Below are positions 15,868 through 22,856 of a DNA stretch of 64,000 bases, piece after piece. Position numbers and translations under genes: made by a program. The notes below the pieces were generated by a model, which had not been told where the DNA came from, searched no databases, and saw nothing but the letters and a program-made list of their open reading frames with translations. The stretch comes from Natrinema ejinorense (lineage in GTDB: Archaea; Halobacteriota; Halobacteria; Halobacteriales; Natrialbaceae), in assembly GCF_002494345.1 (NCBI RefSeq), contig NZ_NXNI01000001.1, positions 1,798,001 through 1,862,000 on the forward strand, read 5' to 3'. How positions within the stretch are numbered: the stretch's first letter is position 1; every line of letters starts with the position of its first letter.

Positions 15868-16578
15868 CTACTCCGTCACGCCGACGCCACGTGCCGCCGT
15901 TGCCTTCACCGAGGCGACGATCGATCGGCCGGGCTCGAGCCCCAGGGCGTCGACGCTGCGCCGGGTGACCAGGGCGACGAGTTCGGTGCCTCCGTCGTCG
16001 TCCACGTCCGCCTCGAGTTCGATTCCCACCCGCGCGACTGCGTCGCCGGCCTCGAGCCACGAGACGGTCCCCGAAAAGCGGTTGCGAACGCTCGTTCCCT
16101 CGGCACGCGGGACGTCGCTCGGCGCGTGGAGACTGACGGCGTCGGACCGAATCGTCACGGCCGCAGTCACGGTATCGGCCGGAACGACCGCCAGAATCGC
16201 TCCGACGTCGGTCTCGACGGTCGCCAGTTCGCCATCGCGGTCGACGACCGGGCCCGTGAGCACCGTCTCGTCGACGCGGGCGACGCCCTCGTAGGCCGCG
16301 ACCAGCCGGTCGAATCGCGACAGGAGATCCTTGGCCGTTCCCGTCAGGGAACTGCCGCCGCCGTCGGCGCCGCCGCGCGTTCGTTCGACCAGCGGCCCGA
16401 TCGCTTCCTCGAGCGCGACCACCCGCTGCTGGAGCCGGGGATAGGACCGCTCGAGGGCGTCGGCGGCACCCGACAGCGAGCCACAGTCGTCGATCGCATG
16501 CAGCATCTCGACGTCGCTGCGGTCGACGGTCACGTCGTCGATCCGCAGATAGGGGTCGAACTCCTTTTCCATGATCAT
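15868..16578 (-). CDS. ModE-like molybdate/tungstate-responsive regulator
   Basis: The 236-residue protein joins a ModE/LysR-type winged helix (about 14-80, DVEMLHAIDDCGSLSGAADA, then RSYPRLQQRVVALEEAIGP) to two TOBE/Mop-type oxyanion-binding units (about 105-155 and 165-235). This is the build of ModE, which binds DNA when loaded with molybdate or tungstate. It sits 67 bp downstream of tupC in the same direction, so it probably senses what the transporter imports and controls this operon; that is inference. ATG 16578 or 16572 can start it. Confidence 0.85.
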   Translation of the reverse strand: MIMEKEFDPYLRIDDVTVDRSDVEMLHAIDDCGSLSGAADALERSYPRLQQRVVALEEAIGPLVERTRGGADGGGSSLTGTAKDLLSRFDRLVAAYEGVARVDETVLTGPVVDRDGELATVETDVGAILAVVPADTVTAAVTIRSDAVSLHAPSDVPRAEGTSVRNRFSGTVSWLEAGDAVARVGIELEADVDDDGGTELVALVTRRSVDALGLEPGRSIVASVKATAARGVGVTE

Positions 16579-16645
16579 CGGTACTCACGGCACTCCCAGC
16601 CGAATCGGGGCCAGTGATCGACGCCGCTCGAGTCCCCGTTCGCGC

Positions 16646-17449
16646 TCAGGCGAGAAGTTCGTTTTCATCGTACAGGAGATCACCGCGAACGAAGCGTGCG
16701 GTTCGTTCGTCGCGAGGGGTATCGAAGACCCGCTCGGGCGGGCCGACCTCGATCAGTTCGCCCTCGAGCAAGAACGCAACGCGATCGGAAATCCGCTCGG
16801 CCTGGTGCATGTCGTGGGTCGCGAGCAAGACGCCGTGATCGTGGTCGCGGACCCGCTCGATCGCGCGCTCGAGAATGGCCGTGTTCCGCGGGTCGAGATC
16901 CGAGGTCGGCTCGTCGAGGACGAGCAGATCGGGTCGCGGGGCGAGCGCGCGAGCGAAGGACACCCGCTGGGCCTCTCCGCCCGACAGCGAACTCGCCGCC
17001 CGATCCCACTCCTCCCGGAGCCCGACGAGTTCGAGGGCCTCGAGCGTTCGGTCGTCGACCGTCGGCGACCCGTGGATCCAGCGACTCGCGAGCCGCTCGG
17101 CGAAGTCACGGATCCGGCTGGACCACGGCCGACGAACCCGCCTGCCGGCATCGACGTTGCGCGCCACCGAGGTCGCGAACAGGCTCGCCTGCTGGAAGAC
17201 GACCCCGATCCGCCGGCGGAGTGTGAGTCGCTCGTCTCGCGGGAGCGACCACGGGTCCGTCCTATCGCTCCGGACCGCGCCGTCGGTTGGCCGTTCGAAT
17301 AGCGACGCCAGCCGCAACAGGGTGGTCTTGCCGGCCCCCGAGGGGCCGATGATCGTCACGACCTCGCCGGGTTCGACGGCGAGCGAGACGTCCGACAGAA
17401 TTCGGGTCCCGTCGACGCCGTAGGAAACGCCCTCGAGTTCGAGATTCAT
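16646..17449 (-). CDS. tupC: Tungstate/molybdate ABC transporter ATP-binding protein
   Basis: The 267-residue ABC ATPase energises oxyanion uptake on the cytoplasmic face. Walker A is GPSGAGKT (35-42), the signature is LSGGEAQR, Walker B is LLVLDEP and the switch His is in LLATHDMHQ. An Arg-rich insertion (about 112-130) after the Q-loop is unusual. No TOBE domain is attached, as in TupC; oxyanion sensing may instead reside in the ModE-like neighbour. Two bases separate it from tupB. Confidence 0.9.
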   Translation of the reverse strand: MNLELEGVSYGVDGTRILSDVSLAVEPGEVVTIIGPSGAGKTTLLRLASLFERPTDGAVRSDRTDPWSLPRDERLTLRRRIGVVFQQASLFATSVARNVDAGRRVRRPWSSRIRDFAERLASRWIHGSPTVDDRTLEALELVGLREEWDRAASSLSGGEAQRVSFARALAPRPDLLVLDEPTSDLDPRNTAILERAIERVRDHDHGVLLATHDMHQAERISDRVAFLLEGELIEVGPPERVFDTPRDERTARFVRGDLLYDENELLA

Positions 17450-17451
17450 TA

Positions 17452-18123
17452 TTATCGACCTCCGAGCCGCAAGACGAGTCCGTTGACGAGCAAGACGAGG
17501 ACGAGCAACACCGCACCGAGTACCAGCGCCGTCTCGAACTCGCCCCGTCTCGTCTCGAACGTGATCGCGGTCGTGATCGTTCGCGTCTTCGAGGTGCCGT
17601 CGGCGTAGGCGATGTTGCCGCCGACGATCAGGACGGAGCCGACCTCGCTGACCGCGCGCCCGAACCCGGCGAGAATACCCGTAATAACGCCGTATCGGGC
17701 CTCTTTGAGCGTGATGAGGGCGACGTCCGTGCGGGTCCCGCCGATCCCGTAGGCCGCGTTCCGGACGGTGTCGTCGACGCTCTCGACGGCCGACAGCGCG
17801 ACGCCGGTGATGACCGGCGCGGCGAGGATGCACTGGGAGATGATCATCGCCTCGGGCGTATAGACGAGATTCAGCGATCCCAGCGGGCCGTTGTTCGAGA
17901 TCGCCAGCAGGACGAGTAGTCCGACGACGACGCTGGGGAACCCCATTCCCGTGTTGATGACGGCCGTGACGAGGCGCTTCCCCCGAAAGTCTGCAAAGCC
18001 AACGAGGAAGGCGATCGGCAGGCTCAACAGCGTACTCAGCGCGACGGCAGTCAGGCTGACCGTCAGCGAGACCCGGATAATACTCCGGAGATAGTTGGGT
18101 TCGACGATGGGCTCGAGTGGCAT
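17452..18123 (-). CDS. tupB: Tungstate/molybdate ABC transporter permease
   Basis: The 223-residue protein has five or six transmembrane helices and the ABC-permease EAA loop, here [20 protein letters not shown], followed by [18 protein letters not shown], the TupB/WtpB-like signature. It forms the membrane channel with TupC and receives the anion from TupA. It is short compared with ModB but normal for TupB. It lies 43 bp after tupA in the same operon. Confidence 0.9.
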
Positions 18124-18166
18124 CTGGTTGTTGTCGGTTCGTGTCGATGGGTTCTGTTCGTACCGA

Positions 18167-19090
18167 TCAGTCCGCGTCGGCGTTCGACTGCCATCCTTCG
18201 GGAACGTACTGCTGGAAGTCCGGATCCTCGGACAGCGCTTCGGGATAGAACAACTGTTGGTCGTTTGCGGTGAACTCCCCGATCACCGCCTGCCCGTCGG
18301 GGCTCGTGACGAAGCCGATGTAGGCCATGGCGAGCTGGTAGTTGACGTTCGAGTGGATCTCGGGGTTGATCGCCATGATGCCGTAGGGGTTCGCGAGGAG
18401 CGACGGCCCGCCCTTGATCGGTCCCTGGAGCAGAAGCTCGAGGTCGACGTTGTCCTGCATCGAGAGATAGGTTCCGCGGTCGGCCAGCGTGTAGGCGCTC
18501 GACTCGCTTGCGACCGTCAACGTGTCTCCCATCCCGTCGCCGGTTTCCTGATACCACTCGCCGCCGGGCTCGAGGCCGGCCTCGCTCCAGATCACGCGCT
18601 CCTTGGTGTGCGTCCCGGAGTCGTCGCCGCGAGACATAAAGGTCGCCCGAGCGCTGGCGATGGCGTCGAACGCGGCGGTCGCCCCTTCGGTTTCGCTTAC
18701 GCCAGCGGGATCGTCGCTCGGACCGACGACCACGAAGTCGTTGAACATCAAATCTCGTCGGTTGACGCCGTAGCCATCTCGCATGAACTCGTCTTCCTGT
18801 GAACGGGCGTGGACGAGGATGACGTCCGCGTTGCCGTTGCGGGCGGATTCGATCGCTTTCCCCGTCCCCTGTGCGTTGGCCGCGACGGGCGTTCCGAACC
18901 GTTCCTGAAACGCCTCGTTGACCTCGTCGAGCAGCCCCGTATCGTACGTACTGGTCGTCGTCGCGAGCGCGAGTTCTTCGCCGGTAATCGACCCGTCGCC
19001 CTCCGCGTTCCGCCCTCCGAGACACCCGGAAACGGCCGCAGCGATCCCGGCCACACCCGCCCCGAGAACCTCCCGCCTTCGATATTCCAT
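18167..19090 (-). CDS. tupA: Tungstate-binding lipoprotein of the ABC transporter
   Basis: The 307-residue binding protein starts [10 protein letters not shown] with a Tat-like and lipobox signal (C23 in VSGC), so it is anchored outside. The TupA signature [10 protein letters not shown] lies at 44-53, with the later motifs [21 protein letters not shown] and [12 protein letters not shown] that line the tungstate site. TupA proteins usually prefer tungstate; molybdate binding cannot be excluded. ATG 19090 gives a clean signal; ATG 19120 would add ten residues. It is the first gene of tupABC plus the ModE-like gene. Confidence 0.92.
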
Positions 19091-19110
19091 ATACGGAATA
19101 ACGATGGAAT
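19084..19110. promoter_or_regulatory. Operator-like inverted repeat before tupA
   Basis: ATTCCAT (19084-19090) and ATGGAAT (19104-19110) are a perfect 7-bp inverted repeat with a 13-bp spacer that holds one more GGAATA. On the minus strand a TATA-like TTTATGATA lies just upstream (about 19123-19115). The repeat overlaps the likely start of transcription and the tupA start codon, a suitable site for the ModE-like regulator. Confidence 0.5.
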
Positions 19111-19202
19111 ACGGTATCATAAACGTACCGCTCGAGGAACCCGTCGGTGGTTACGGATCGCTCTCGAGGACTTACTGCGGGCGAACGCGTAACGATATCC
19201 GG

Positions 19203-19661
19203 TTACGCCGCCACCGCGACCACGACGTTCTGGACGTACCGCATACTCGTCGCGATCGCCATGATCCCGTCCATCAGCGCCTGCTGGGTGGCACCGTCGG
19301 GATAGATCCGATACTCCACCTGTACCGTCTCCGCCTCGCGCAACTGGCAGGACGCGCCGTCCTCGTCGAGGAACGTGTAGAACCCCGGCGTCGCCGCCAG
19401 CATCGGTCCGACGTACTCGAGTAACTCGCCGCGTCGCTGATCGTCGCGAAGCAGGTTCCTGGCTCGTTCGGTGTCGAACCCGCTTTGGCCGACGATTCGA
19501 ACCGGCCCGAACTCGTCTTCCTTGATGACGTGGACCGGAAGCTGTGAGAGTTCGACCTGGAAGTTGAACTCGGTATCCTCGCCGGCGTGGGAAGTCACGT
19601 TCCGGATCGCCGTATCGTCCAGCCAGTGACGGACCTGCGTCTCGCTGATGTGTCTCGCCAT
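19203..19661 (-). CDS. DUF2299-like archaeal protein
   Basis: The 152-residue acidic protein has alternating beta strands and helices with a RIYPDGATQQALMDGIMAIATS motif near the C-terminus. That motif and the VHVIKEDEFGPVRIVGQ strand match what I recall of archaeal DUF2299. Function is unknown; the fold resembles two-layer chaperone-like or YbjN-like domains. The start ATG 19661 is the first Met. It lies between tupA and the acidic four-gene operon, with 98 bp to the latter. Confidence 0.65.
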   Translation of the reverse strand: MARHISETQVRHWLDDTAIRNVTSHAGEDTEFNFQVELSQLPVHVIKEDEFGPVRIVGQSGFDTERARNLLRDDQRRGELLEYVGPMLAATPGFYTFLDEDGASCQLREAETVQVEYRIYPDGATQQALMDGIMAIATSMRYVQNVVVAVAA

Positions 19662-19759: not shown

Positions 19760-20575
19760 CTAGCCGTGCTTGTCCGGCATCGTCGAGTGACGCGTGACCC
19801 CATGCATGTCCGCCCGCTCGGACGGGGGTGGTGGCATCGTCGAATGGCGGCTCGGACCGCCCGACGTTCCGCGAGTCCGGTCGCCGCCGAGCCCCGATCC
19901 GAGAACTCCCTCGTCTTCCTCTTCGTCCGCCGTTTCTGCCTCGTCAGCCGCTTCTTCGGTACCACCCTCGTCCCCGGACCCGGCGTCGGCAGCCGTCTCG
20001 TCGGCCGCCGACGCGTCGCTGCGGGCGGGTCCCTCACTCGCGGAGTCGAGTCGCTCTCTGAGTTGCGCCACATCGTCGCCGAATTGCTCGAACGAGGACC
20101 GCATCGACGATCGGAGTCGATCCCCGAGGTCGTCGGACGTCTCCTCCGCCGTGTCGCCTCCGGATGCCTCCGTGTCCGCGTCCGTCCTCGCGGATTCCTC
20201 CCGGTCACCGATCGTCTCCCGAAGGCCGTCGGCGGTCGCTTCGAGATCACGTTCGTCCGCTCGGTCGGCGAGTTTCGCGAGGTGGAGCAACCGCTGCAGG
20301 TCCTCGAGGTTCTCCTGGTCGCCCCGTGCGATGGCCTCCGGAATCGACTTCGGTTCGGTTCCGTCCGCGAGCGTGTCCAGCCCCACCGCCGCGAGCAGGT
20401 CGGCGGGGTCGGCGGTCTCGAGTAGCTCGTTCGCTTCCTCGGCGGTCTCGAGCAGGGTCATTTTGGGGGACTCGTCCTCGCCAGCCGAGTCGTCGTCGGC
20501 GACGACCGAGTGGCTCGACGCGGCGGCCCGGTTCAATACCTCGTCCACTCGATCCCGTAGTCGTGAGTCGTTCAT
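19760..20575 (-). CDS. Acidic protein of the glycine-zipper operon, gene 4
   Basis: The 271-residue protein is not of a family I know. Residues 1-110 are helical (LLETAEEANELLETADPADLLAAVGL), including LEDLQRLLHLAKLAD. Residues about 120-225 are an Asp/Glu/Ala/Ser-rich low-complexity tract. The C-terminus is different: it carries two copies of RHSTMP (about 246-251 and 262-267) separated by PPPPSERADMHGVT, a possible short linear motif. No signal peptide is seen. It is the last gene of the run, 69 bp after the SAP-like gene. ATG 20575 is chosen because the eight residues upstream of it look unrelated. Confidence 0.7.
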   Translation of the reverse strand: MNDSRLRDRVDEVLNRAAASSHSVVADDDSAGEDESPKMTLLETAEEANELLETADPADLLAAVGLDTLADGTEPKSIPEAIARGDQENLEDLQRLLHLAKLADRADERDLEATADGLRETIGDREESARTDADTEASGGDTAEETSDDLGDRLRSSMRSSFEQFGDDVAQLRERLDSASEGPARSDASAADETAADAGSGDEGGTEEAADEAETADEEEDEGVLGSGLGGDRTRGTSGGPSRHSTMPPPPSERADMHGVTRHSTMPDKHG

Positions 20576-20644: not shown

Positions 20645-21415
20645 CTACTCGGCTGTTGCCTCCGCTTCTGACCCCGAGTCGTCGTCGCTCTCCTCGTCGA
20701 TCACTGCCCCGATGATTGCGTCGGTCATCTCCTCCCGGCTGAGGTTCGCCTTCACGCCGACGTCCTTCGCGACCGACTGCAAGTCGCTGTAGGACATCAC
20801 CCCGAGGAAGTCCTCGAGGGTGTCCGTCCTGAGGTCCTCGAGGTCATCCATCGACGGCTCCGCCTCGGGCTCGTCGGGCGTCTCGGCTTCGTCGGACGCC
20901 TCGGCTTCCGTCGCTTCCTGCTCGGCCGCAGCCGTCTCGTCTTCACCGTCGGCGTCGCTCTCGGACACGTCCTCCTCGGGTGCCGCCTGCGCATCGCTCT
21001 CCGACTCGTCTTCGGCAGGCTCGTCACGTCCGTCGCCGCCGATGCTATCGAGAAGTCCCTCGACGCTGCTGCCGTCGGTCACACTCCTGGCTACCGACTC
21101 GAGCGAATCGCGGCCCGTGATCTCCGAGATCGAGTCCCCGAGAGCGTCCCGAATCGCCGCCGATAATTCGGTTCTGATCTCGCCGAGTCCTTTCCCCTCG
21201 TCGACGCCTTCGGCGATCGTCTCGTGGACTTCTCGGCCGACCGCCGCCCCGACCTCGCGGCCGAACTGTTCGCCGAACTGTCGACCGACCGCTGCGCCGA
21301 CCTCGCCGCCGTCGATGCTGTCTTCGATGGGGCCGTCGCCGAGCATATCGGCGACATCGAGTTGATTGCTCACCTCGTTGGCCACCATCCCCTTCAGTCC
21401 GGATCCGTCACTCAC
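20645..21415 (-). CDS. Acidic glycine-zipper protein with SAP-like C-terminus, gene 3
   Basis: The 256-residue protein is read from GTG 21415. Gly occurs at 36, 40, 44, 48, 52, 56 and 60, a perfect i+4 glycine zipper (GEVGAAVGRQFGEQFGREVG), a pattern that packs helices tightly and can insert in membranes. Amphipathic helices follow (70-120). An acidic Glu/Asp/Ala tract (about 130-195) leads to a compact C-terminal helical module (LEDFLGVMSYSDLQSVAKDVG...SREEMTDAIIGAV) resembling SAP or Rho-N domains that bind nucleic acid. Function unknown. It lies 53 bp after gene 2. Confidence 0.7.
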   Translation of the reverse strand: MSDGSGLKGMVANEVSNQLDVADMLGDGPIEDSIDGGEVGAAVGRQFGEQFGREVGAAVGREVHETIAEGVDEGKGLGEIRTELSAAIRDALGDSISEITGRDSLESVARSVTDGSSVEGLLDSIGGDGRDEPAEDESESDAQAAPEEDVSESDADGEDETAAAEQEATEAEASDEAETPDEPEAEPSMDDLEDLRTDTLEDFLGVMSYSDLQSVAKDVGVKANLSREEMTDAIIGAVIDEESDDDSGSEAEATAE

Positions 21416-21468
21416 GGCGACCACCTCGAGCCGGGCCGTCGAGCGGGAGCGTGTGCTGCATCACGGTG

Positions 21469-21906
21469 TTACTCCTCGGCTTCGGTCGCCTGCTCCGATT
21501 CCTCGTCCGCCGATTCCTCGTCCGCCGATGCCTCGCCTTCCTCGCCCGATTCGGAATCGTCTTGGGCCTCGTCTTCGCCGCTCTCGTCGTCCGCTTCGGT
21601 CTCGGGCTCGTCCGCTTCCTCACCCTCCGCAGCCGTTTCCTCGCTTTCCTCGGCGGCCTCCTCGCCTTCCTCCTCGTCGCCGGAACTGAGCAGTTCGTCG
21701 ACGACCATGTTCCCGATCGTTCGTCCGAGGGATTCGCCGATCGCTCGCCCGAGGATCGCGCCGATCTGTCCGCCAAGCGCTTCCCCGAGCGGCTTGTCCC
21801 CGTCGATCTCGTCCTCCCACTGGGTCCCCTCGACCAGTTCGTCGACGTCGACGTTTTCGGTGATCTTCTCGGTATCGATCCGCTGTGTGATTGAATCGTC
21901 GCTCAT
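21469..21906 (-). CDS. Acidic glycine-zipper protein, gene 2
   Basis: The 145-residue protein starts MSDDSITQRIDTEKITENVD. Gly at 41, 45, 49, 53, 57, 61 and 65 forms a seven-step i+4 glycine zipper (GEALGGQIGAILGRAIGESL), the same design as in the neighbouring gene. From residue 76 onward the chain is almost wholly Glu, Asp, Ser and Ala. No family is recognised. ATG 21906 overlaps the stop of gene 1 (ATGA), a sign of translational coupling. The zipper could form a membrane-bound or self-assembling helix bundle with an acidic brush; this is inference. Confidence 0.72.
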   Translation of the reverse strand: MSDDSITQRIDTEKITENVDVDELVEGTQWEDEIDGDKPLGEALGGQIGAILGRAIGESLGRTIGNMVVDELLSSGDEEEGEEAAEESEETAAEGEEADEPETEADDESGEDEAQDDSESGEEGEASADEESADEESEQATEAEE

Positions 21907-22856
21907 GATGATGCTTCCGCCTGTGACGGCTCCGCCTGTCCGCCGGCCTCTTCCTCACGCTCCGGCTCGAGTCGTTCGATTAGCTGTTCGATTACTTCGC
22001 TGACGATCATCGCCACGATCTCCTCGGTCGGGAAGCTGGGAACGAGCCCGGACAGCTTCTCTCTGAGCCAGCTGGCCGCCCTGGAGATGCGACCCGGCGT
22101 CTCGTCGCCCTCGCTCGGTTCCGCTTCCTCGTCGTCGGCTGCTGGTTCCGCTTCCTCGGCGTCCGGTTCGTCAGTCTCCGCCGGTTCGCCAGCGCCACCG
22201 CCAACGAGTCCACTGAGCCACTCCCCGGGCTTGCTGAGTGCGCTATTGAGCCACTCTCTGGGCTTGCCAAGTACGTTGCTGAGCAGCTCTTTTGGCTTGC
22301 TAACCAGGGAACTGAGCAGCTCTTTTGGTTTGCCCAGTAGCGACTGGACCTTGTCAAGCAGGGCGCCGGGGCCGTCGAGAAGTCCCGTGACTGCCGATAG
22401 CAGGTTCCCGAGCAGGTTGTTCCCGCCGGGTCGCGCCGAGACGTCGAGCGTGACCGGATTCAGGTTCACCTCGAGGCCGAGCAGATCCAGGAAGAGGCCG
22501 TCGAGGTCGAGGTGGAGGACGCCGGCCGTTTCGTCGTCCTGGTAGACATCGTCGGCGTCTTCGACGTGGTACTCGTCTTCTTCCTCGTCGTCGGTGTCCT
22601 CCCCGTCCGTTTCAGCTTCTTCTTCGCCCTCCTCCTCGGCTTCCGTTTCGTCTTCTCCTTCCGTGGTCCCGGTTTCTTCCTCGGTCTCTTCTTTTTCGTC
22701 CTCGTCTTCGCTTTCGACTGCGCCTTCGGATTCGTCTTCCCCTCCCTGGGTCTCCTCGCTTTCGGCAGTGTCCGCCTCCCCTTCCTCGGCGTCGGCTTCC
22801 GCTTCCTCGGGCTGGTCGCCGGACTCCTCCATCCCCGCCTGTCCGCCGTCGGTCAT
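21903..22856 (-). CDS. Acidic protein with 11-residue amphipathic repeats, gene 1
   Basis: The 317-residue protein has an acidic N-terminal tract (9-110). Next comes a leucine-rich segment with LHLDLDGLFLDLLGLEVNL and RPGGNNLLGNLL (113-160). Four 11-residue repeats with consensus LSxxLxKPxEL/W span 170-213. A second acidic linker follows, then a helical tail (SWLREKLSGL, IVAMIVSEVIEQLIERL). I place the start at ATG 22856 because the 39 residues before it (to ATG 22973) are Arg-rich and unlike the rest. It heads the four-gene run; no signal peptide is seen. Regular 11-residue repeats are typical of helices that lie on lipid surfaces or granules. Confidence 0.72.
   Translation of the reverse strand: MTDGGQAGMEESGDQPEEAEADAEEGEADTAESEETQGGEDESEGAVESEDEDEKEETEEETGTTEGEDETEAEEEGEEEAETDGEDTDDEEEDEYHVEDADDVYQDDETAGVLHLDLDGLFLDLLGLEVNLNPVTLDVSARPGGNNLLGNLLSAVTGLLDGPGALLDKVQSLLGKPKELLSSLVSKPKELLSNVLGKPREWLNSALSKPGEWLSGLVGGGAGEPAETDEPDAEEAEPAADDEEAEPSEGDETPGRISRAASWLREKLSGLVPSFPTEEIVAMIVSEVIEQLIERLEPEREEEAGGQAEPSQAEASS

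Follow-up and report, generated by a model that had tools for sequence, protein, structure and literature searches.

Two neighboring genes for glycine-zipper proteins in Natrinema ejinorense are very probably the middle genes of a four-gene accessory operon for the gas vesicles of haloarchaea. We call these genes g1 to g4, and we refer to the entire 64,000-nucleotide stretch of DNA in which they were analyzed as the window. Comparisons among sequenced genomes indicate that the four genes are conserved together and that g1 and g2 are confined to genomes that encode GvpA, and they make a strong case for a link between the operon and gas vesicles. On the best reading of these sequences, the operon would be a gas-vesicle accessory module that combines new protein families with a single known one. 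No description of it was found in the open-access literature on glycine zippers, SAP domains, haloarchaea, and gas vesicles. The accessible portion of a paper on Natrialba describes a divergent gvpI and one extra gene in the gvp cluster of that organism, and mentions no second locus (PMC3403918).

Organization and conservation of the operon

The four genes are encoded on the same strand (Table 1), and the 3′ end of g1 overlaps the start of g2 by four bases. For the length and residue numbering of g3, the GTG codon at position 21415 was taken as the start; the longest open reading frame (ORF) begins three codons earlier, at 21424. The order g1-g2-g3-g4 is kept in 21 of 21 named loci from relatives that include Natrinema, Natronorubrum, Natrialba, Halopiger, and others. 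Genes in the genomes other than those of the named loci were called by a composition-based caller, and start codons for the named-locus comparison were picked by script, such that a few N-termini are possibly misplaced. Two sequences were left out, namely that of L074 from the g3 alignment (a late start was chosen) and that of L073 from the g1 alignment (it contains N).

Table 1. Operon genes and sequence features, with positions numbered from the first nucleotide of the window
Feature	Position	Strand	Description
g1	21903..22856	-	Heads the operon; acidic, with 317 aa when translated from position 22856
g2	21469..21906	-	Gene 2 of the original prediction; 145 aa; helical N-terminal region followed by a glycine-zipper helix and an acidic tail
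g3	20645..21415	-	Gene 3 of the original prediction; 256 aa; helix at the N-terminus, then a glycine-zipper helix and an acidic linker, with a SAP/Rho-N-like domain at the C-terminus
g4	19760..20575	-	GvpI-like paralog of 271 aa; helical, acidic N-terminal domain joined by a disordered linker to a conserved C-terminal tail
g2 glycine zipper	21712..21786	-	Residues 41-65; seven Gly at i+4
g3 glycine zipper	21236..21310	-	Residues 36-60; predicted to lie within one long helix (36-72)
g3 C-terminal domain	20684..20851	-	Residues 189-244; predicted three-helix, SAP/Rho-N-like fold; pLDDT about 90
g4 tail motifs	19775..19849	-	RHSTMP pair (residues 243-248 and 262-267) with a spacing of 19 residues

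The surroundings of the operon vary among relatives, where its flanks include genes for a PQQ propeller, CbiX, DUF3209, a tungstate transporter, and DUF2299. At L076-L079, the four-gene order is retained and the flanking genes of the window were not found. Downstream of the operon, the window carries genes for a tungstate-type ABC transporter (TupA/TupB-like, with its ATPase) and a ModE/Mop-type regulator (15868-19120); this transporter has apparently been swapped for another in L065 and G006. A DUF2299-like gene (19203-19661) directly follows g4. It is present in only some relatives, and a remnant of it persists in G027, from which the operon is gone.

Existing protein libraries offer no names for these proteins. 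None of g1-g4 is named by Pfam, NCBIfam, or PHROGs, in which g1-g3 had no match above the curated cut-offs, and comparison of g1-g3 with PDB sequences returned nothing convincing. Homologs of g1-g4 in a plasmid record of Haladaptatus halobius are annotated as hypothetical proteins. The first protein, g1, is encoded at all 21 named loci and has a mostly invariant core, LDLDGLFLDLLGLEVNLNPVTLDVSARPG..NLLGNLL, plus K-P-x-E-x-L repeats; its AlphaFold model is unusable (pLDDT 51). Across 196 genomes drawn from the whole phylum, a search for g1 gave 11 matches, every one of them within the taxonomic order to which the window belongs. A tblastn search of plasmids with g1 gave no match, which reflects a limit of tblastn because a homolog does occur on a plasmid there. 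Some haloarchaea encode much longer versions of g1, with 620-780 amino acids (L116:5985-8303, L117:5539-7887, and L115:7134-8999), and the inserts in L115 and L116 contain repeats that resemble carboxypeptidase-regulatory/Ig-type beta domains. Scans for a promoter detected nothing, either with a bacterial-type model or with an archaeal BRE/TATA pattern.

Glycine zippers of g2 and g3

The original prediction, which did not place the two genes in an operon linked to gas vesicles, held that g2 and g3 each have a strictly i+4-spaced run of seven glycines, and this is the case: the glycines fall at residues 41, 45, 49, 53, 57, 61, and 65 of g2 and at residues 36, 40, 44, 48, 52, 56, and 60 of g3. 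Whole-protein shuffling produced a run of seven once in 20,000 trials for g3 and never in 20,000 for g2. When only the glycine-rich 40-residue segment was shuffled, the counts were 9 (g3) and 5 (g2) in 200,000. Among the 49 ORFs called in the window, g2 and g3 alone have a run longer than four.

It was also proposed that the prediction should be abandoned if the glycines were not conserved in homologs. It stands because the zipper glycines are near-invariant across the 21 homologous loci. When the window and the named loci, all from the same family, are considered together, all seven glycines of g2 are kept in 22 of 22 sequences. In g3, Gly44, Gly48, Gly52, and Gly56 are likewise present in 22/22, Gly60 in 21/22, Gly40 in 21/21, and Gly36 in 17/21. 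At loci from other haloarchaea (L112-L192), a run of at least five occurs in 37 of 54 zipper-family ORFs versus 8 of 1,341 other called ORFs, and one of these eight, from Haladaptatus halobius (L151), is itself a zipper protein. The gene for this hypothetical protein (L151:22514-23131) lies in the gvp cluster of H. halobius, between gvpO and gvpF.

The repeat unit of the zippers is hydrophobic-Gly-x-x. In 47 distinct segments from the more distant loci, L, V, I, A, F, or M precedes 250 of 259 zipper glycines, and such a repeat would therefore place the glycines and hydrophobic residues on one side of the helix and the charges on the other. The hydrophobic moment of both zippers reaches its maximum at 90 degrees per residue rather than 100. 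This value suggests that the glycine face turns slowly around a 3.6-residue helix, as would fit right-handed crossing helices. Thus, the glycine face that had been predicted is borne out by the near-invariant glycines, the hydrophobic residues before them, and the moment maximum, with the amendment that the face is hydrophobic as well.

The suggestion that the helices insert into membranes is not supported. The best 19-residue Kyte-Doolittle mean is only 0.82 for g2 and 0.63 for g3, the latter located outside the zipper, and Arg, Glu, or Gln recurs every turn or two. A transmembrane zipper helix is strongly disfavored by this low hydropathy and by the charged residues found throughout the zipper. 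The Pfam glycine-zipper families are membrane-linked bacterial proteins, and several of them (PF13488 Gly-zipper_Omp, PF13441, and PF05433) have an i+4 glycine run in common with g2 and g3. However, g2 and g3 score only 10.3-13.9 bits against gathering cut-offs of 24.2-28.9, and they appear charged and cytosolic, unlike the members of those families.

Relationship between g2 and g3, and the C-terminal domain of g3

A profile-profile comparison of g2 with g3 gave a strong match (probability 97.3, E 1.7e-11) that spans the N-terminal 65 residues. With the zipper removed, the preceding 35-39 residues still match (probability 87, E 3.8e-6), whereas two control segments gave probabilities of 0.2 and 0.8. 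We conclude that g2 and g3 are paralogs, as was originally proposed for their helices, because their N-terminal regions align even without the zipper and the controls do not.

The predicted model of g3 consists of one long helix and a separate C-terminal domain (Table 1). The structural matches to the latter found with VIA-align include the SAP domain of 3′hExo (Z 6.8, 1.9 Å over 54 residues), the Rho N-terminal domain (Z 5.9, 17% identity), and Tho1, SIZ1, FAN1, and DEK. A viral fold search returned only weak matches, many of them SAP-type. The matches consistently point to SAP and Rho N-terminal domains and thus to a possible helix-extended-helix fold, at Z scores of 6.8 or less, and g3 has no sequence-family match to these domains (Pfam SAP was not hit). 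We treat the SAP/Rho-N-like assignment of the model as a lead rather than proof because the best Z score is below 8.

Two GvpC proteins from the family to which the window belongs, in G100 (L201:8554-9576) and G033 (L139:11683-12933), have a short, SAP-looking helical end where GvpC of Halobacterium carries its zinc finger. A possible equivalence of this end and the g3 C-terminal domain was considered and set aside: a BLAST match in a tiny set (E 0.001) found no support in a profile search. Specifically, a profile of 46 g3-type C-termini, run at E 5 against 1,471 ORFs, did not list these GvpC proteins, in a set that may not hold both of the GvpC ORFs.

g4 is a paralog of GvpI

The profile of g4 matches a GvpI-type profile over 231 columns (probability 98.8, E 9.1e-17). 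The GvpI-type profile represents nine proteins, of which eight are from gvp clusters and one (Halalkalicoccus, L152) has no annotated gvp gene nearby. A paired STMP/STVP motif in the tail is also common to g4 and GvpI. With slight variants allowed, the RHSTMP pair of g4 is present in 22 of 22 sequences, and GvpI of H. salinarum (WP_010890525.1, from pNRC100) has a paired HSTMP...HSTVP near its end. The acidic N-terminal domain of g4 has a counterpart in the long GvpI encoded by gvp clusters of the Natrinema type. However, GvpI has a C-terminal YS..RxYGxRF block that is absent from g4, which ends just past its second STMP. Moreover, GvpI is encoded between gvpH and gvpJ, whereas g4 lies outside the gvp cluster, and in the genome of the window the gvpH-gvpJ slot is occupied by another GvpI-type gene (L138:8398-9312). 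Because the YS..RxYGxRF block is missing and a second GvpI-type gene resides in the gvp cluster, we name g4 a GvpI-like paralog and not GvpI. By these profile and motif comparisons, g4 is a paralog of GvpI. One study reports that GvpH, GvpL, and GvpF are binding partners of GvpI and that very long vesicles form when GvpI is lost; it also describes the laboratory host Haloferax volcanii as devoid of gvp genes (PMC7688916).

Co-inheritance with GvpA

In a class-wide draw of 292 haloarchaeal genomes, g1 is present in 95 of 119 GvpA-positive genomes versus none of 173 that lack GvpA. Among 100 relatives, g2 is found in 57 of 62 GvpA-positive and 0 of 38 GvpA-negative genomes, and the corresponding counts for g3 are 57/62 and 4/38. 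The four exceptional g3 matches are in G014, whose operon is ruined, and in G068, G070, and G094 (C-terminal-only matches). In the genome of the window, gvpA (at 2.269 Mb) is about 440 kb away from the operon (at 1.82 Mb) on the same contig, and so physical linkage does not account for their co-occurrence.

Three searched species from the genus of the window lack GvpA, and each preserves the site from which the operon has gone. In G027, what follows the PQQ gene is the DUF2299 remnant with TupA; G006 has different transporter genes there, and G014 retains only pieces of g1 and g3. The PQQ gene and other genes of the flanks remain intact in each of these genomes. The sequences thus document three losses of the operon from a preserved site within one genus, all in GvpA-negative genomes.

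In several other families, the operon is located in or next to gvp clusters. In both L120 and L121, g1, zipper genes, and a GvpI-like gene share a single region with genes for GvpA/J/M-type proteins and for GvpF, G, H, K, L, and O. The operon adjoins the gvp cluster in L145, L178, L179, and L118, and in Haladaptatus halobius (L151) its genes are carried by the plasmid that also bears the gvp genes. In L116 and L131, gvpO is followed by a zinc-ribbon gene and then g1. This gene (CPSC...CLDC or CIDC), which encodes 111-117 amino acids and lies between gvpO and g1 (L116:5592-5933, L118:8339-8692, and L131:6695-7030), is possibly one more gas-vesicle accessory gene. GvpO itself carries an N-terminal Cys/His-rich, DUF5763-like segment in L138:12431-13108 (a Pfam match) and, as judged by eye, in L118:8718-9176.

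Near-exclusion with GvpC

The gvp cluster in the genome of the window reads M L K J I H G F / A N O, in which gvpN begins seven bases past gvpA and gvpC, gvpD, and gvpE are absent. The relevant parts of published accounts likewise give gvp clusters without gvpC, D, and E for Natrialba magadii (PMC3403918) and for Natrinema pellirubrum and others (a 2015 review; PMC4390858), whereas a table in a 2022 review gives gvpACNO for the same species and so conflicts with both (PMC9501494).

A GvpC profile gave 13 strong matches in the 292 genomes, all of which are GvpA-positive. GvpC is encoded by 12 of the 24 GvpA-positive genomes that lack g1 versus only 1 of the 95 that carry it (3 of 95 if weak matches are included). 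The associated Fisher p-value (3e-9), like others of its kind, is too strong because the genomes are phylogenetically clumped rather than independent. Reading the gvp regions gene by gene gave GvpC in 10 of 19 operon-negative genomes versus 0 of 36 operon-positive genomes, for some of which the region read covers only part of the cluster. At the genus level, the operon is found in 2 of 9 genera with GvpC versus 32 of 38 others (p 7e-4), and within genus g52 GvpC is in G108 and the operon is in G103. The single genome with both g1 and a strong GvpC match, G100, has two gvp loci, of which one includes GvpC and the other is the usual GvpC-less cluster. G100 is from the same species as the window, and its loci L201, L202, and L203, which together comprise the gvp loci with and without GvpC and the operon, constitute a natural side-by-side case.

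The remaining 12 GvpA-positive genomes without g1 include G005, which has kept g2, g3, and g4 and lost the g1 core, and G204, G289, and G292, in which zipper genes are near gvp genes. The other eight (G081, G182, G225, G295, G308, G313, G272, and G230) have neither GvpC nor a clear operon, with one weak g3 match (5e-4) in G230. Therefore, neither GvpC nor the operon is indispensable. Three genomes (G105, G277, and G033) have GvpC clusters that lack GvpD and GvpE and are also without the operon, and for this reason the operon tracks GvpC better than it tracks GvpD/E.

Comparisons of g1 and g3 with GvpC by hhalign each gave a probability of 0.1, and thus no detectable homology. What the operon proteins and GvpC have in common is that they are accessory, acidic, and largely helical, but GvpC-type repeats and a zinc finger were not seen by eye in g1-g4, and the operon is not located between gvpA and gvpN as gvpC is. 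The available text of one report places GvpC on the outer vesicle surface, where it strengthens the vesicle, and describes weaker, deformed vesicles in its absence (PMC9372576). According to the accessible part of the 2015 review, species without GvpC are Vac-, and their 11 gvp genes should suffice (PMC4390858).

Possible functions of the operon

We propose that the glycine/hydrophobic faces of g2 and g3 would pack together as tightly crossing helices, in a putative heterodimer of the kind suggested in the original prediction, or alternatively that each might pack against itself or against a shell protein. The charged outer face and the long, acidic, salt-tolerant tails would remain in the salty cytoplasm. 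The GvpI-type domain and tail of g4 might dock the set onto the accessory complex, namely the GvpF/L/H machinery. In the least certain step, which we offer only tentatively, the set would stabilize or shape vesicles where GvpC is missing. A role at the vesicle surface like the stabilizing and shape-setting one of GvpC in Halobacterium is proposed because GvpC and the operon rarely coexist, and we regard it as somewhat less likely than not. A bolder and somewhat more doubtful idea is that haloarchaeal gas vesicles have two alternative finishes: a GvpC coat, or an unrelated coat made of paired g2/g3 zipper helices with g1 as the anchor and g4 as a dedicated GvpI paralog. If so, species without GvpC would not be defective, and part of their vesicle equipment would have been overlooked because the second, unlinked locus is annotated as hypothetical.

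Perhaps the operon instead serves to position or cluster vesicles. The zipper helices would then attach to vesicles or vesicle precursors, or gather them into bundles, while the C-terminal domain of g3, with its SAP/Rho-N-like fold, would bind nucleic acid or another partner. Vesicles would thereby be spaced, partitioned, or tethered rather than strengthened. The confidently modeled g3 domain with its closest resemblance to SAP/Rho-N folds, the long acidic linkers, and the similar C-terminal segments in which several in-cluster zipper proteins end are all consistent with such an adaptor. However, the fold call is moderate, Pfam SAP gives no match, a common fold proves no function, and the near-exclusion with GvpC would be left unexplained. 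We consider an adaptor to be rather unlikely. The fold of g3, if it binds nucleic acid, could also belong to a regulator that replaces GvpD/GvpE in the control of gvp expression, particularly as the GvpC-less clusters of this family are reported in the accessible parts of two papers (PMC4390858, PMC3403918), and were read here, to lack gvpD/gvpE as well. Yet the three genomes without D/E that also lack the operon speak against this, and four co-conserved, acidic, largely disordered proteins that include a GvpI paralog look structural or assembly-related, which makes a regulator improbable.

It is also conceivable that the operon and the gvp cluster are both old and that the same lineages happened to lose both, each for a reason of its own. 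The clumped sampling favors this explanation, as does the fact that the genus-level GvpC test is much weaker than the genome-level test. Nevertheless, the three losses at an otherwise intact site in one genus, the presence of the operon inside gvp clusters of other families, and the GvpI paralog within the operon render shared ancestry very improbable as the whole explanation. Even less credible is a membrane-inserting helical bundle or pore with no tie to gas vesicles, an alternative raised in the original prediction. GxxxG repeats are common in membrane helices, and the sub-threshold matches to Pfam glycine-zipper families would be in keeping with such a bundle, but the far too low hydropathy, the charges throughout the zipper, and the strict co-occurrence with GvpA weigh heavily against it.

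Implications for gas-vesicle biology

Gas vesicles are studied as buoyancy organelles, as ultrasound tools, and as tools for antigen display. The haloarchaeal gvp set is taken to comprise 14 genes, and an unnamed module that tracks GvpA across many genera would lengthen this parts list. The compact, charged glycine-zipper helix is a possible new assembly element. Furthermore, the accessory module favored here would give species without GvpC a testable explanation, and it makes testable the question of why species with complete-looking gvp clusters have been reported as Vac-.
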